Assembly: GCA_947648915.1 (NCBI GenBank)
Contig: CANSPQ010000014.1
Location: forward strand, 1 to 32,021
DNA: 32,021 nucleotides
Reading direction: 5' to 3'
From: an uncultured Caryophanales bacterium
GTDB lineage: Bacteria; Bacillota_I; Bacilli_A; RF39; UBA660
The notes below the pieces were generated by a model that was given only the letters and a program-made list of their open reading frames with translations, ran no database searches and was not told the origin of the DNA. Position numbers and translations under genes: made by a program. Shown here piece after piece: positions 6,906 to 31,986 of this stretch. Numbering within the stretch: position 1 is the first letter of the stretch; each line of letters begins with the position of its first letter.

Positions 6906-6933
6906 TTGACAAGATTTCATTTTCTGTTATAAT
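6906..6933 (+). promoter_or_regulatory. Sigma-A promoter, leader copy 1
   Basis: TTGACA (6906-6911) and a perfect TATAAT (6928-6933) are 16 bases apart, only four bases after the HAD stop. It drives the structured leader and the TPR operon. Confidence 0.85.
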
Positions 6934-6939
6934 AGGCAA

Positions 6940-7042
6940 CATTAGACAAAGAGGAATCATAATATAGTTTGTGGGTAGGTAAAATACAAGTATGCTATTT
7001 GCAAACGGGGGGGGGGGACACCCTCTTTTTTATGGTCTAAAA
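6940..7042 (+). ncRNA. Structured G-rich leader RNA of the TPR operon (unknown class)
   Basis: The predicted leader has several pairings. TTAGAC (6942-6947) pairs with GTCTAA (7035-7040). AAAGAGG (6948-6954) can pair with CCTCTTT (7022-7028). A 12-base arm (6967-6978) pairs with 6995-7006, including a block of G-U wobbles. An 11-base G run (7007-7017) can instead pair with CCC (7021-7023) before a T run, as a terminator. The CCTC segment cannot serve both, so the layout looks like an attenuator with mutually exclusive folds. I compared it from memory with common riboswitch consensus sequences and none fitted. Binding of a ligand or protein is not shown. Confidence 0.6.
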
Positions 7043-7111
7043 TATCGTTGAATTCTAATTGCTATTGTGAAATCATCAGATGATGCAATATTTTAAGTAG
7101 GGGGTATGAAA

Positions 7112-8110
7112 ATGACTCAAAATATGAGCGATATTTATTATAACGGAATGAATAGTTGGAAAAATAATGATTATATAAATGCAAGAAAATATTTTGAAAT
7201 TTCTTACAATGCTTCTGAATTTAAGAATGATTCATTATCAAAATTACTTCAAATTGATTTAAGAGAAGGAAAATATAATAAAGTTAGGAAATTATTAGAA
7301 GAAAATATTGAGAATCAAACAGTTCAAATGAAGCAAGTATATGGATTATTAGAAAATATTGAAAATAATTTTGAGGCAAGCAAAAAATACTATAGTGCAT
7401 GTATGGTTGATCCAAAAATGCAAAATAAAGCCTTGTTATCTATTGCAAAACTATATATTCAAACAGGAGACAATGAAGTAGCTAGAAAAATGTTTGAGAC
7501 CTTACAACTGGATAACTATTTTAAAATACAATCAACAATTGATTTAATTTGTTTAAACATTTTGGAACAAAATTATAGTGATGCTCAAAGTCTATTAAAA
7601 GGAATTGATGAAAAAAGATTGACTCCTAAACTTTATCAACATTATCGCATTTTACACATGTATATTCAATATTTTCAAGGGAAATTAAATAGCTCAAATA
7701 ATCATTTTGATCCTGTCAAGGACTATATGATTTATAGATTATTTGATCATAACGAAGAAATATTGCTAAATCATATACAAAAACATATGAATCAAAGAGA
7801 TAGAGACAGTAATGGATGTTTTTTCAAATATATAGATTTAAAAAAATTGCTTTCTGATGTAAGAGAAAGAATAGAAGGTATGAATGCAAATCACTTTGAG
7901 GTTTCTGATATGTATCGGTTTCAATTGGATACTCCGATTGGATTTAAAGGGGATGATATTACAAGTGACTTATGTGTAGTAACTATGATTGGAACAAAAG
8001 ATATTATAACAATGTATCCAGTTTTGCTATCAGATAAGTTTGATAAAGAGGGATTTTCTATAAGCAAAGAACTTATGCATAAAAGAAATATTGGAGGTAA
8101 AAAAAGATGA
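7112..8110 (+). CDS. TPR-repeat protein, first gene of a two-gene accessory operon
   Basis: This protein of 332 residues is built mainly of tetratricopeptide-like helical pairs over about residues 1-205 (for example MSDIYYNGMNSWKNNDYINARKYFE and ALLSIAKLYIQTGDNEVARKMFE). A shorter C-terminal domain follows (about 240-325) with RFQLDTPIGFKGDDITSDLCVVTMIGTKDIITMYPV, which looks beta-rich. It has no signal peptide or membrane segment, so it is probably a cytosolic scaffold or sensor. The ATG at 7112 has AGGGGG seven bases upstream; the ATG at 7106 is too close to that site. Its stop overlaps the start of the next TPR gene (ATGA), so the two are translationally coupled. I do not recognise a specific family, and the function is unknown. 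Confidence 0.75.
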   Translation: MTQNMSDIYYNGMNSWKNNDYINARKYFEISYNASEFKNDSLSKLLQIDLREGKYNKVRKLLEENIENQTVQMKQVYGLLENIENNFEASKKYYSACMVDPKMQNKALLSIAKLYIQTGDNEVARKMFETLQLDNYFKIQSTIDLICLNILEQNYSDAQSLLKGIDEKRLTPKLYQHYRILHMYIQYFQGKLNSSNNHFDPVKDYMIYRLFDHNEEILLNHIQKHMNQRDRDSNGCFFKYIDLKKLLSDVRERIEGMNANHFEVSDMYRFQLDTPIGFKGDDITSDLCVVTMIGTKDIITMYPVLLSDKFDKEGFSISKELMHKRNIGGKKR

Positions 8111-10647
8111 TAAATGAAGAAAGTCTAATGAAAATGTATGATGGTATATTAAACAACTCAGTATTAACAACAAAGAAGTTAAATGAATATGGTTTTCATG
8201 CAAAAGATATATCTGATTTAATAAAAGAAGGAAAACTACAAAGATTAAAAAGAGGTTATTATTCTTTACTTTCTATTGATGATCTATTTTATTATGGTAA
8301 AAGATTAATTTCAATGAAAGAATATGAAAAAGCAACGAAATGTTTTTTGACTTGTTATCAATTAAATCCACAACATTTAGGTTCTTGCTTTCAATTGTTT
8401 TTAAGAAGTATCCAAAGCAAAAATTATGAAAAAGCATTTGAATATTTTGAACATTTTTATGAATCCGAAAATGAAAATTATAATCATGATAGCAATTATT
8501 ACTTATATCTATTAAACATCATTACTGAATTACCAGAGCATCATAGAGAATATGCAAGATATTTAAAATTAAGTGATATTAGTGCTAATTATAATGATAA
8601 AAGGTATAGTAATCATCAACTTTATAATAAGATTAGAATATCATCGTTAAATCAAAGATTTGTACTTGCATTAAGGCAACTGAATGAGGCAATTCATGAA
8701 AACAATGGAATAATCACTGTACAGGATATTGTAGTTAAGACTTTATTAACGCAGGCTATAGAAAAACAACAAGAAACAAAAAAACGTATAATTAAATTAA
8801 TAAATGAAAAGAAATATGATGAAGTAATCCAGTTTTTACAAAATATGGATACCAAACATGGTTTAAGCCGTGCAGACCAATATACTCTAGTATTAATAAA
8901 AGATTTAACTAAAATAATAAAAACAGGTGAAATTCCAAAAAAACAAATATTTAGTACCGATAAAGTACTTGATGCAATTGAAGGTAAAAATTATGAATTA
9001 GCTTTTCAATTGAGTTTAGAATATCTTAAAAAAAGTAATATAAATTCTGATGATAATGCGTTATATTTATTGTTATCAGAAATTCAGAATTTGATGAATA
9101 TGCATAAAGAAATTTCACAGGTAGTAGAACAACAGGTTGTAGAAGAAATAGAATCTCATTCTATAAAAAAATCAGAAGAGCAACCAATTCAAGTACAAGC
9201 AACAAATTCCTTTACTGATACAAATACTTTTGCTGATATTATTGGATATTTGATGAAGGAAGATTTAGATAATGCTTTTACTGCTTTAAGAAATTATTTA
9301 TGTAGTATAAATAAAAGCCAATATGAATTTTTGATAATTGATTTAATTAAGATTAGCCTGATAGAAGGGGATATTGCTTTTACAAAACCTATGATTTCTT
9401 TAACTTATATTACAAGAGAAAATTTTGAATTCAATATTTCAGAATATATTCAAAAATTTTATGAAAATTTAGCAAACAATAATTTTGAACATGCAAGAAT
9501 ATATTTAGATATTATATCAAAGGCAAATAAGTTAGGACAATCTTGTATATTAACGGAAAGCTTAGAGAGGGTATTAAATGATACTGAAAAGATGCAAAAT
9601 TACAAAAGAAATAATGATGTAATAAGCAGGGTAGATGATTCAATAGAAAATATTTCAGAATTCACTTCTGAAGGAGAATCATATGCTGATTCCACTTCAA
9701 CTATTCCTTCCAAACTACTTTGTGAACAACCAGCTATTGAAAACATAGTGATGCCGAAGGATGGAATAGATACGAATCATAAAGCAACTCCACCAAAAAA
9801 GACTTATGATGATTATGATTTGATTCAGCAAAAGCTAGATGAGGTGTATGAAAAGGGAATTATCGTGTTAAAACCAATGAATGATGGACGAAGAAAAGAA
9901 ATACACAATATTGTGAAAAATATTCCGGATGTTGTATCATTCAGTATTGGAGCGAGTGAGGATAGAAGGGTAGTATTAAGATTTAAACCATATATATATG
10001 AACATATTGATATAAAACAAATGACGAGCATAGGAAATGAAGCATACAAAAATGGGGATTATGATACTTGCATAAATTCTTATCGACAATTGTTAGAATT
10101 AAAAGAGCCAAAAGCATTCATTTATGCAAAACTTGGATTAGCCTATATGAAAAAGTTTGATAAAAATACTGCAATTGACTATTTCACTGTAGCTACAGAG
10201 TTAAGTAAAAAGGAAAATGGAATGTATGATTTTACAGAATTGATAGCTAGTTTAAATGGGCTCATATCACAGGAGGATAAGAAGCCACTAGTTAGAATGC
10301 AAACATCTGATTTTAAAGATGATATAGATGAGTATTATGGAATAGATGGTATTGATCAAGTAGCAAAATTGATATCTTCTGGAATGACCATTGAAGAAGC
10401 TTGCTGTAATTTAAGGTTAAATGAGGAACAAAAAAATATTGTTACATTAATTTATGCGAGGGAATATTATGCACAGGAGTTTTATGCACTTGGTGATCAA
10501 TATTTGAAAAAGGTGGAACGCACAAAGAATAAATCTAAATTTGTTATTACGTTACTTGAAGAAATTAGGAAAAATAAAAGATTTTATAAGAATAGAATGA
10601 TCGAGGAAGCAAAACATTTAACATTTACTTCTGAGACACAGAATTAG
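8107..10647 (+). CDS. Large TPR protein with AbiEi-like winged-helix N-terminus
   Basis: This protein has 846 residues. Residues about 18-56 (SVLTTKKLNEYGFHAKDISDLIKEGKLQRLKRGYYSL) match the N-terminal winged-helix pattern of AbiEi-type antitoxins and related transcription regulators. TPR-like helical repeats follow from about 60, interrupted by linkers around 335-375 and 535-590. A further alpha/beta segment (about 590-640) and two canonical TPRs (TSIGNEAYKNGDYDTCINSYRQLLELK, then FIYAKLGLAYMKKFDKNTAIDYFTVATEL) precede a helical C-terminus with a GMTIEEACCNLRLNEEQ segment. GGAGG (8093-8097) precedes the ATG, which overlaps the upstream TPR stop. A DNA-binding head joined to a long peptide-binding solenoid suggests a regulator or sensor; this is inference. 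No catalytic motif is seen. Confidence 0.72.
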   Translation: MINEESLMKMYDGILNNSVLTTKKLNEYGFHAKDISDLIKEGKLQRLKRGYYSLLSIDDLFYYGKRLISMKEYEKATKCFLTCYQLNPQHLGSCFQLFLRSIQSKNYEKAFEYFEHFYESENENYNHDSNYYLYLLNIITELPEHHREYARYLKLSDISANYNDKRYSNHQLYNKIRISSLNQRFVLALRQLNEAIHENNGIITVQDIVVKTLLTQAIEKQQETKKRIIKLINEKKYDEVIQFLQNMDTKHGLSRADQYTLVLIKDLTKIIKTGEIPKKQIFSTDKVLDAIEGKNYELAFQLSLEYLKKSNINSDDNALYLLLSEIQNLMNMHKEISQVVEQQVVEEIESHSIKKSEEQPIQVQATNSFTDTNTFADIIGYLMKEDLDNAFTALRNYLCSINKSQYEFLIIDLIKISLIEGDIAFTKPMISLTYITRENFEFNISEYIQKFYENLANNNFEHARIYLDIISKANKLGQSCILTESLERVLNDTEKMQNYKRNNDVISRVDDSIENISEFTSEGESYADSTSTIPSKLLCEQPAIENIVMPKDGIDTNHKATPPKKTYDDYDLIQQKLDEVYEKGIIVLKPMNDGRRKEIHNIVKNIPDVVSFSIGASEDRRVVLRFKPYIYEHIDIKQMTSIGNEAYKNGDYDTCINSYRQLLELKEPKAFIYAKLGLAYMKKFDKNTAIDYFTVATELSKKENGMYDFTELIASLNGLISQEDKKPLVRMQTSDFKDDIDEYYGIDGIDQVAKLISSGMTIEEACCNLRLNEEQKNIVTLIYAREYYAQEFYALGDQYLKKVERTKNKSKFVITLLEEIRKNKRFYKNRMIEEAKHLTFTSETQN

Positions 10648-10714: not shown

Positions 10715-10742
10715 TTGACAAGATTTCATTTTCTGTTATAAT
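10715..10742 (+). promoter_or_regulatory. Sigma-A promoter, leader copy 2
   Basis: TTGACA (10715-10720) and TATAAT (10737-10742) are 16 bases apart, identical to copy 1. It drives the Fic gene. Confidence 0.85.
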
Positions 10743-10748
10743 AGGCAA

Positions 10749-10851
10749 CATTAGACAAAGAGGAATCATAAAATAGTTTGTGGGTAGGTAAAATATAAGT
10801 ATGCCATTTGCAAACGGAGGGGGGGACACCCTCTTTTTTTATTGTCTAAAA
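10749..10851 (+). ncRNA. Structured G-rich leader RNA of the fic gene (unknown class)
   Basis: It has the same pairings as copy 1: 10751-10756 with 10844-10849, 10757-10763 with 10830-10836, and 10776-10787 with 10804-10815. Here the G tract is GGA followed by seven G, which gives a cleaner terminator stem GAGGG/CCCTC (10817-10821 with 10829-10833) before seven T. The one base change in the 10804-10815 arm adds a mismatch near the loop, so covariation support from the pair is weak. A reading frame from ATG 10801 runs through the terminator in frame with fic. Confidence 0.6.
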
Positions 10852-10866
10852 ATAGGAGATGAAATT

Positions 10867-11604
10867 ATGAATGAAGTAGTAATTGATATGGAATTTTTAA
10901 TACAAGAGTCCTTTTTAGGTTATAAGTATCGCAAGGAAAATAAAAAATTATATAATACAGATGCTGATTTACCTAAAAAATTAATCTATTTGTATTATTC
11001 AACAAACCAAGATAGAAATTTCGAAGATATTCCTAAAGCATTTATTAATCGATATATCAAGAATGAATGTGCTTTAGAAGGAGTACATGACAAAGAAGAA
11101 ATCATTGGGCAGGGAATTATGTACGAGTTTGCCCATACTACAGATGAACGATTTGATATTTATTCTTTGTTGTCATTTCATAAACAATTATATTCTGTTT
11201 CACCATACCCTGAGTGTGCGGGTCAATTCCGAAATTATGATGTGTATTTGCCAGGAACTGGAACAGAGATAGCTGAATGGTCAACGATTCGTACTCAAAT
11301 TAGAGCGTTAGACCCATTTGTCAATGAACTCATTGAAAAAGCAAAAATCCTAGATAAAAGTAATCCAAATGAATTGGTTCAGTATATTGATGACTGTATC
11401 AAAATAAAGTGTGCATTAATTAAAATTCATCCATTTTTTGATGGAAATGGTAGGACCATAAGATGTTTTATCAATTATCTATTTGAATTGGCAGGTATTC
11501 CTCCAATTTATATTAAGGTAAATGAGAGAACAGAATATCATTTGGCTATGAATCGGGCAAATTGCGAAAACGATTTTTCGGGTATTATCAATTTTTGTAA
11601 GTAA
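10867..11604 (+). CDS. Fic-domain protein (probable AMP/NMP transferase)
   Basis: This 245-residue protein has the full Fic core HPFFDGNGRTIR (188-199), with catalytic His188, the acidic residue and the phosphate-binding GNGR. Such enzymes usually transfer AMP from ATP to a target hydroxyl. An inhibitory-helix-like segment NECALEG (66-72) lies N-terminal to the core, as in class II Fic proteins. The family motif (S/T)xxxE(G/N) has Glu in place of Ser/Thr, while the key inhibitory Glu71 is kept, so self-inhibition may still work. The ATG at 10867 has TAGGAGATG upstream. An in-frame extension from 10801 passes through the leader terminator and is not believed to be the main start. The gene is alone after the second leader copy; no separate antitoxin gene is seen. 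Confidence 0.9.
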   Translation: MNEVVIDMEFLIQESFLGYKYRKENKKLYNTDADLPKKLIYLYYSTNQDRNFEDIPKAFINRYIKNECALEGVHDKEEIIGQGIMYEFAHTTDERFDIYSLLSFHKQLYSVSPYPECAGQFRNYDVYLPGTGTEIAEWSTIRTQIRALDPFVNELIEKAKILDKSNPNELVQYIDDCIKIKCALIKIHPFFDGNGRTIRCFINYLFELAGIPPIYIKVNERTEYHLAMNRANCENDFSGIINFCK

Positions 11605-27800: not shown

Positions 27801-30800
27801 AAAGCAGGAGATATTTACACATTGTCATTTTGGTATAAAAATGAAGGCTTAGTGGCAGGAGAAGGAATGTATTATGGAACTTATAACAATATTATATTTG
27901 GATTTATCCCTGTAGCAGAATTTGGAACTGATGATGTTTATATCAAACCATTTAATCCGAATGAAAAGGAATGGCAGTATTATTCTTGTACCTTTACAGC
28001 ACCATTTGATTTCAAAGAAATAAATATGTCATTTTTACAATCTATGAATGCTAATAACTTCTATATTACCAATATCAATTTATTTAAGGATGTTAGAAGT
28101 GTAACTTATGATTATGATGAAAACGGGAATGTGATTTTATCAAAGAATTTAAACAAAGATTCGAGTTCATTCAAGTATGATAAAAACAATCAATTGATTG
28201 GTATGTTTGATCCTAAGGGTAAGAATTTTACATTTGAATATGATAATATTGTTACTGATAGAGTTTTAAAAGGAGTATCAGAAACAGGAATTTCGAATGA
28301 AGTGGAATATGATTCTTTTGGTAATCCACGCATTACTAGAATTGTAAATAGAGGACAAGAGACATATGTTACTGAAGAAACTTATAGAATCAGATTAAAA
28401 GGAACCGAAAAGTATATTAGACTAATTGATAATTCTATATCACTAGTAGAAGATTTATGTAATCACGATTCATGGATTTTTGATACAATACTTACGGGTA
28501 CTCATGATTATTTTAGAATATCACACTCTATTATTTCGCAAAAATATTTAACTTTAAGTGATAATAAGTTAGAGTTCATAGATAATAATAATGAGTATTC
28601 TTTATTCACATTTATTAAAAATGAAAATGGAAGTTATTGTATTCAATGTAAGGCAAATAATTTATATTTATATAATGATAACAATAGTTTACACTTCAAA
28701 GAATTAGAAAAAGGAAATTATAATTTTGAATTTTATTTAGAAGCTCTGACAAATTCAGTACTTTATACTGATCCAGTTGCAACTGCAGAATTTATTGAAA
28801 ACAGTTGTGAATATACAGAAGATGGAAAATATATCAAAAGTATAACAGATACAAGAATGCATAAAACAAGCTATGATATTGATACAACAACAGGTCTTCT
28901 AAATTCAATTACTAATGCCAAAAATCAAACAACAAATTACGTTTATAACGATAAAAGACAGTTAACTGGCATTACAACGAAAGATAGAAGTGTAGGCTAT
29001 ACTTACAATAATCAAAATCTATTATCAGAAATTACCCAACAAGATAGAGTATATCATTTTATCTATGACAACTTCTTAAATATGAAATCTGTAAAAATAG
29101 GAGATAATATTACCTTAATTACCAATAATTATGAAGAAAACAATGGTAATTTAGTATCTTCTATTTATGGAAATGATGATTCCATTACTTATGAATATGA
29201 TGAATTTGATCGTATTAAGAAAGTAAATAAGATGAATGATACGTATGAATACTTCTATGGTAATAATGGAGATTTATTAAAGATAAAATCCAATGAAAAT
29301 ACAATCAAATATACCTATGATTCTGGTAAACGGTTATATAAGTATTGTAATAACAATTTTAAAATTACTTATGGATATGATTCTAACGACAATATTATTA
29401 GCAAGAAGTATGTTTTAAATGGAACAGAATATACCGAAGTGGTAAATACGTTCAATAAGGATGATGCTCTTACAAAAGTGCAAATATTTGGTGATTTAGG
29501 GGTAAGTTATTATTACGATAATTTAGGAAGATTAGATTATAAAAGTTTAAATCATGTTATTCCAATATTTTACGAGTATTTAACAAATGGTAGGAGAACT
29601 TCTTTGTTAATCAATAAAATAAAAATAGAAAATGATGTTTATTCTTATAAGTATGATAAGTTAGATAATATTACACATATTTATTATAATGGTGTATTAG
29701 AGAATAGATACTATTATGATGATTACAATGAACTTATCAAAGAAGATAATTATATTTTAAATAAAACGATAAAATATACCTATGATAGCTTAGGAAATCT
29801 ATTATCTAAAAAGGTATATGAATTAGGTACAAATAATCTAGTAGCTCAAGATAGTTATCAATATAATAATTCAAATTGGAAAGATCAATTAACCAAATTT
29901 AATAATGACATAATAACTTATGATGCAATAGGAAATCCACTTACCATAGGAGAAAATATCACATTAGATTGGGTAAATGGAAGACAATTAAACCAATATG
30001 TTGATGCAAATAACACAGTAGAATATCAATACAATAAAGATGGAATTAGAACTTCTAAGACAATTAATAATGTGAAGACAGAGTATTATGTAGAGGGGAC
30101 ATCTATTATATTTGAAAAAACGGGTAATGATGTGTTATACTATATACGTAATGAAGTAGATGGATTAGTAGGATTCAAATATAATGATGAAACTTATTAT
30201 TATATTAAGAATAATCAAAATGATATTATTGCAATTTTAGATAGTCTTCATAATTATGTTGCAAAATATACCTATGATGCATGGGGCAACATCATATCTA
30301 TTACAGATAGTGATGGCAATGATGTATCAAATGATGATACTCATATAGGGAATATCAATCCATTTAGATATAGAAGTTATTATTATGACAAAGAAACCAA
30401 TTTATATTATTTAAATAGTAGATATTATAATCCTGTATGGGGTAGATTTTTAAATGTAGATTCTGATTTAGGTGCAAATAAAGATATAAATAGTTACAAT
30501 TTATATACTTATGTAAGTAATAATCCAATAAATATGTGTGATCCAAGTGGACAATTTGGTATAATATTAGGCTGTGTAATTATTGGAGGAGTTGCAGGAG
30601 CAATTGCTGGCGGAATGGTAGGCGCAGCTAAGTCAAAAGCAAAAACAGGAAAGGTAAAATCTTCAGAAGTTATTAAAGGTGCTACAACAGGTGGAGTAGG
30701 TGGAGCACTTGTAGGCCTTGCAGTAGGCAGCTTAGGATATGCAGCAACAGCATTATTAAATCCTCAGACAAAGGATGCAGCTCAACAGGGATATGATACG

Positions 30801-31565: not shown

Positions 31566-31620
31566 GAAAAGAAAGATTGTTAAGAGAAAACAAATAAAAA
31601 AGACTTCAATACAAATAAAC

Positions 31621-31986
31621 TATGATTCTGGTAAACGGTTATATGAGTATGCAAATAACGGATTTAAAGTAAAGTATGGATATGATTCTAACGATAATAT
31701 TATTAGTAAGAAGTACATTTTAAATGGAACAGAATATACCGAAGTGGTAAATACGTTCAATAAGGATGATGCTCTTACAAAAGTGCAAATATTTGGTGAT
31801 TTAGGGGTAAGTTATTATTACGATAATTTAGGAAGATTAGATTATAAAAGTCTAAATCATGTCATTCCAATATTTTACGAGTATTTAACCAATGGAAAAA
31901 GAACTTCATTGTTAATCAATAAAATAAAAATAGAAAATGATATTTATTCTTATAAATATGATAAATTAACGCGTTGTGCTAGTTGA
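31621..31986 (+). pseudogene. Displaced RHS core fragment
   Basis: Positions 31621-31968 match 29316-29663 of the RHS gene in frame (YDSGKRLYEYANNGFKVKYGYDSNDN... to YSYKYDKL). Homology then stops abruptly, and the frame ends 18 bases later at 31986 after TRCAS. The upstream open frame (TTG at 31564) lies in the terminator T run and has no ribosome-binding site. The piece has neither an RHS start nor a toxin tip in the window. It looks like a remnant of an orphan toxin cassette of the kind used for tip exchange by recombination; the rest may lie beyond the window. Confidence 0.85.

Follow-up and report, generated by a model that had tools for sequence, protein, structure and literature searches.

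Two leader copies in the window

The window, by which we mean the whole stretch of 32,021 nucleotides analysed here, holds two copies of a compact element, each lying between a promoter and a gene on the forward strand (Table 1). The first precedes a TPR-like gene that forms a unit with a second, longer gene; the second, offset by +3809, precedes a Fic/DOC-family gene, whose start was set at the ATG after AGGAG, as the automatic ORF start (10801) falls within the leader. Both copies belong to a subtype with the loop ACA, the genes of which encode Fic (PF02661), TPR and Spo0A_C-like proteins, together with a sigma-region-4-like match that lies under its cut-off. With z-scores of -2.8 to -3.4, the window leaders fold better than their dinucleotide shuffles, and at 7007-7028 there are three terminator-like readings, overlapping one another, where 0.1 were expected. 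Elsewhere in the window, a 300-bp repeat (29302-29601 and 31607-31906; 91% identical) corresponds to the core of a YD-repeat (RHS-like) gene and adjoins a truncated second copy, and a 34-nt unit recurs three times head-to-tail at the contig start (1-102), the third unit being just 68% identical.

Table 1. Coordinates of the two leader copies and adjoining genes within the window.
Feature	Position	Strand	Description
Promoter, copy 1	6906..6933	+	TTGACA, 16 nt, TATAAT, TG before the -10; 12/12 matches
A-box, copy 1	6955..6966	+	AATCATAATATA; conserved, predicted single-stranded, precedes P2
Hairpin P2, copy 1	6967..7006	+	arms 6967-6978 and 6995-7006 (12 bp); compensatory changes between genera
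Terminator-like hairpin P3, copy 1	7007..7031	+	G11 7007-7017, loop ACA, CCCTC 7021-7025, T6 7026-7031
Gene 3' of copy 1	7106..8110	+	TPR-like protein, 334 aa; TPR under curated cut-off
Second gene of the TPR-like gene's unit	8107..10647	+	846 aa; AbiEi_4-like N terminus, TPR repeats, R3H domain
Promoter, copy 2	10715..10742	+	by identity with the copy 1 promoter
A-box, copy 2	10764..10775	+	AATCATAAAATA
Hairpin P2, copy 2	10776..10815	+	
Terminator-like hairpin P3, copy 2	10816..10840	+	G tract GGAGGGGGGG, ACA, CCCTC, T7
Gene 3' of copy 2	10867..11604	+	Fic/DOC-family protein; PF02661 E 1.9e-10

The initial annotation had described copy 1 as a structured RNA with mutually exclusive folds, built on a 12-bp hairpin, a G tract and two long-range pairings, and all of these are present where it placed them (TTAGAC 6942-6947 with GTCTAA 7035-7040; AAAGAGG 6948-6954 with CCTCTTT 7022-7028). 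It had further argued from the retention of the long-range pairs in both copies, which is true as an observation; but as the two copies constitute one 154-bp direct repeat, 92% identical, that begins 5' of the promoter and includes it, their shared pairs are no evidence of constraint. When conservation is instead judged over 93 copies, the hairpin and the G-tract terminator persist, but the TTAGAC and AAAGAGG pairings do not, and are restricted to near-identical copies (two on C14, one on C22 and one on C3 of G004). The same comparison brought out a conserved A-rich box that had escaped the annotation.

Architecture of the element

In the element a strong sigma-A promoter leads to the A-rich box (A-box), hairpin P2, the G-tract hairpin P3 and then the gene. 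Among the 89 copies with enough upstream DNA, a promoter-like pair (score >= 10) lies just 5' in 81%, versus 12% of shuffles. The distance from the end of the -10 to the end of the A-box is 21-27 nt in most copies and 31-47 nt in fewer, the window copies among them, with the box itself situated near +10 to +18. Several columns of the A-box (AATCATAAAATA) are identical in 89-93 of the 93 copies, and a related box, AATAGTAATATA or AATAATAAAAT, occurs in other genera.

Hairpin P2 (GUUUGY/GYAAAC) has outer six pairs that are 93-100% paired over 105 copies, in which pair 3 is UA in 82, GC in 19, GU in two and AU in one, and pair 1 is GC in 100 and AU in three. The annotation had proposed covariation among homologous leaders as a check, and P2 does covary across genera: in the cross-genus alignment its covariation score exceeds all but 3 of 500 shuffles, and sliding the partners lowers the proportion of paired cells from 96% to 49-73%. 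The signal appeared only once other genera were added, as no pair changed on both sides in the genus-level alignment. In alignment A2, and slightly in A3, some G tracts and U runs were trimmed manually to let the model align; tract lengths reported here were counted on unedited sequence. The P2 loop varies from about 5 to more than 40 nt, and compact copies exist. Two further structures were considered and set aside. A few copies offer a good closing helix, P1 (ATCATAA/TTATGGT), but it surpasses 95% of shuffles in just 11 of 93 and exhibited no self-preference in a clade-swap test; an H-type pseudoknot (ATAG/CTAT) was dropped because its connecting loops would be zero, and the pairing is absent from genus g2.

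P3 consists of a tract of G or G/A joined by a short loop to an arm of CC(C/T) type, with a U run behind it whose length is 4-9 and most often 7, although the scan itself required four Ts; the tract is predicted to pair with CCCUC and on into the U run, forming a hairpin that resembles an intrinsic terminator. The modal tract length is 10, found in 54 of 93 tracts including 6 of the 14 interrupted ones, and 19 of 20 A's within the G tract pair with U. Such tracts are rare in this genome (30% GC), where 400 kb contained two G runs of at least seven, both within the element. Lying between promoter and gene, and made up of a GC-rich hairpin with a U run behind it, P3 reads as a putative leader intrinsic terminator, and an attenuator-type leader, as the annotation proposed, is the natural reading. 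The proposed logic of mutually exclusive folds fared less well. The AAAGAGG anti-terminator is missing in most copies, and no competing fold that opens the terminator was found in the 93 leaders, in every one of which blocking the pairing between G tract and C arm costs 7.7-18.3 kcal/mol; leader-encoded exclusive folds are thus not supported. The leader is therefore best modelled as holding a terminator with no visible anti-terminator of its own.

Copies, distribution and downstream genes

A DNA search of the element's own genome returned 16 places at E < 1e-5, in which the core recurs about 15 times; three are nearly identical including the promoter, most others share the core only, and one, on C52, shares the terminator only. 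At locus L016 (G000:C52:1255-1291), 5' of another gene, an unrelated hairpin without an A-box is followed by a G10 terminator of this kind. Loci L013 and L325, from this genome and G004, are decayed copies in which A-box and P2 are intact and the terminator arm is lost. In total, 93 distinct copies were parsed, nearly all from seven genomes in two genera, and divergent copies come from another two or three genera in the family. A pattern search of 60 genomes located the core in this genome and three others of its genus, while covariance models, from which per-genome match counts are lower bounds, detected the element in each of the genus's five genomes, in two of the second genus and in further genera. 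Across the family, 12 of 386 genomes have a match with E no higher than 0.05, the three lowest-ranking ones being weak, and a search of 385 genomes of the order added no new lineage. The named records among the carriers are uncultured Bacilli MAGs, two of them labelled 'Lapin', which we take to denote rabbit gut. The phage and plasmid records searched held no similar DNA, and the 11 pattern matches read outside these Bacilli MAGs looked like chance or had no terminator. Loci L239 and L246 (uncultured Clostridia, Lapin-004) are the two occurrences of a repeat ending GTAAAC-G9, without a terminator.

The leader matches no Rfam family, in agreement with the annotation, which had recognised no riboswitch consensus in it: no family of Rfam 15 reached its gathering score, the only match being RF02740, which scored 18.9 bits where 79 were required. 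No description of it turned up in a small number of term-based searches over a limited set of papers. We regard the element as a real leader RNA family, apparently undescribed, that carries a putative terminator.

A same-strand ORF lies 3' of 74 of the 75 copies with at least 400 nt downstream, and the products are mostly prepilin-like (KKKGFTLIELLAVIVILA, KKKGFATSAILYTLLLLFL) or have a single hydrophobic stretch at the N terminus, such that most genes behind the element appear to encode type IV prepilin-like or other surface proteins. Conversely, when 28 prepilin-motif genes from two genomes were examined, a script detected the element at 17 and inspection by eye at one further gene. In some copies from the same genomes the next gene encodes an apparently cytosolic protein. 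The suggestion that the element precedes unrelated genes (TPR and Fic), and so responds to a general stress or phage signal, does not hold in this wider picture, in which those two belong to a smaller non-surface subset. Two observations on other G runs are recorded here. At L360 (G003:C65) lies a pilin gene that lacks the leader element and whose promoter spacer includes a G9 tract (TTGACA...G9 T TATACT), which is the layout of known phase-variable promoters. In G008 (genus g5), a different repeated motif, TTCATAAATC-G8-TACTTTTAAT...TATAAT, places G8 near the -35 of many genes; in a search for exactly eight Gs it was present at 17 of the 20 G8 loci read (L364, L366-L369, L371-L373, L375-L383), and 390 kb of this genome contained no G run longer than eight and a single run of seven, outside the motif.

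Discussion

Leader position, promoter, terminator-like hairpin, A-box, covarying P2 and shared downstream gene classes can all be read from the sequence, and the element is probably a switch. Given a terminator without an anti-terminator of its own, control may be exerted in trans, through G-tract slippage, by a ligand or by translation of a short ORF, or the role of the element may be purely one of stabilisation. We tentatively favour the first, in which a multi-copy 5'-leader attenuation element is opened in trans via the A-box and P2, and would put its chances a little below even. Transcription would start at the strong sigma-A promoter, in most copies shortly 5' of the A-box, and the nascent RNA would expose the A-box and P2; polymerase would then meet a strong intrinsic terminator, whose 5' arm of about 10 Gs pairs with CCCUC and the U run, and by default most transcripts would end at P3. 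We infer that P3 terminates in vivo and that read-through is regulated, the latter by a factor acting in trans, most probably a protein or a modified polymerase, that recognises A-box and P2. Such a factor would co-control the pilin-like surface genes and a smaller set including TPR, Fic and Spo0A_C-like genes. Counting against this reading are the copies ahead of apparently cytosolic proteins and the lack of any fold in the leader able to open the terminator. The regulator is hypothetical, and no known antiterminator was found: 19 of 20 genomes encode one NusG-domain protein and G349 none, so that control by LoaP, which calls for a NusG paralog, was rejected across these 20 genomes, and the CAT_RBD RNA-binding domain of the BglG/LicT type is absent from the 14 genomes searched.

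Foremost among the alternatives, albeit unlikely, is a phase-variable leader terminator, whereby replication slippage in the G tract shifts terminator strength and surface genes drift heritably between low and higher expression. The targets are indeed surface proteins, and surface genes elsewhere are controlled by poly-G slippage (PMC9187656, PMC7864442), while in S. gallolyticus a pilus leader terminator is under phase control (PMC3894217). Five leader pairs from G000 and G004 were compared (L003/L122, L006/L064, L005/L196, L008/L106 and L012/L115, judged orthologous by flanks or downstream gene), and the G tract is different in each; these are differences between species, each represented by one assembled genome. 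The G9 in the promoter spacer of one G003 pilin gene points the same way. Against slippage, predicted hairpin energy moves just ~0.5 kcal/mol per G from 7 to 12 Gs, and the prevalence of tracts of exactly 10, interrupted ones included, looks like a structural optimum and not an on/off switch. A combination may also be envisaged, in which a surface-gene regulon in a few genera of gut Bacilli pairs a slippage-prone G-tract arm with a dedicated antitermination factor, independent of any NusG paralog, that acts via the A-box and P2. We regard this as rather less probable than slippage as such; if true, it would combine heritable variation with control in trans.

A small-molecule riboswitch, in which A-box and P2 form an aptamer beside the terminator and the ligand acts on P3 directly, would accord with a conserved single-stranded box next to a covarying hairpin and terminator, but the variation in P2 loop length and the compact copies, the lack of a metabolic theme among downstream genes, and the want of a competing fold make it decidedly improbable. 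Cyclic di-GMP in particular is an unlikely ligand and was rejected, as there is no Rfam match and the sole GGDEF match in each element-bearing genome is a protein of roughly 690 residues, the size of the c-di-AMP phosphodiesterase GdpP, to which we tentatively assign it on size. Very unlikely, in our judgement, is attenuation by leader translation, in which ribosomes that initiate within the leader collide with P3 and so open the terminator. The S. gallolyticus pil1 operon offers a precedent (PMC3894217), and in genus g2 most copies have a TTG at -19 or -15 preceded by an SD-like AAAGGA, loosely approaching a conserved leader ORF that runs from an SD into the terminator; no such ORF was otherwise seen, a start with a 4-nt SD match occurs in just 35 of 93 copies, at varying position and frame and in several not at all, and compact copies in G005 have no room for one. 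We give just as little credence to a 5' stabiliser whose hairpins and G tract would shield the 5' end of the mRNA, with little termination, for which the placement of structures near the extreme 5' end and the pairing of the G tract into the U run might speak, but which would not need the U run that follows a GC-rich stem in the scanned copies (the scan having required four Ts).

The element defines a compact RNA leader, present in high copy and apparently undescribed, by which a set of pilin-like surface genes of uncultured gut bacteria can be recognised. Should its terminator prove to be regulated, the element would provide a handle on surface control in reduced-genome commensals, and possibly lead to a new antitermination factor.

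Several characterised systems invite comparison. The LoaP-dependent leaders of dfn and mln in Bacillus velezensis (PMC12691694) likewise place a small 5'-leader RNA hairpin 5' of an intrinsic terminator in several operons per genome, but a UNCG hairpin was not noted here, there is no second NusG-family gene, and the targets are pilin-like. The HMP-PP (thiS) riboswitch, which is embedded in a terminator (PMC6478431), resembles the element in being a compact leader whose terminator may itself act as the switch; the present leader differs in having no Rfam match, metabolic gene context or competing fold. In S. gallolyticus pil1 (PMC3894217), as here, a premature terminator in the leader stands before pilus genes, and the leader holds a repeat prone to slippage; there, however, the repeat is GCAGA within a translated leader peptide, whereas the present leader has no conserved ORF and its G tract is the terminator arm. 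The poly-G phase-variable promoters of tprL in Treponema pallidum and porA in Neisseria (PMC7864442) share with the element a G tract of ~8-11 adjoining surface-protein genes, but here the tract lies 3' of the promoter, inside the transcribed terminator hairpin.
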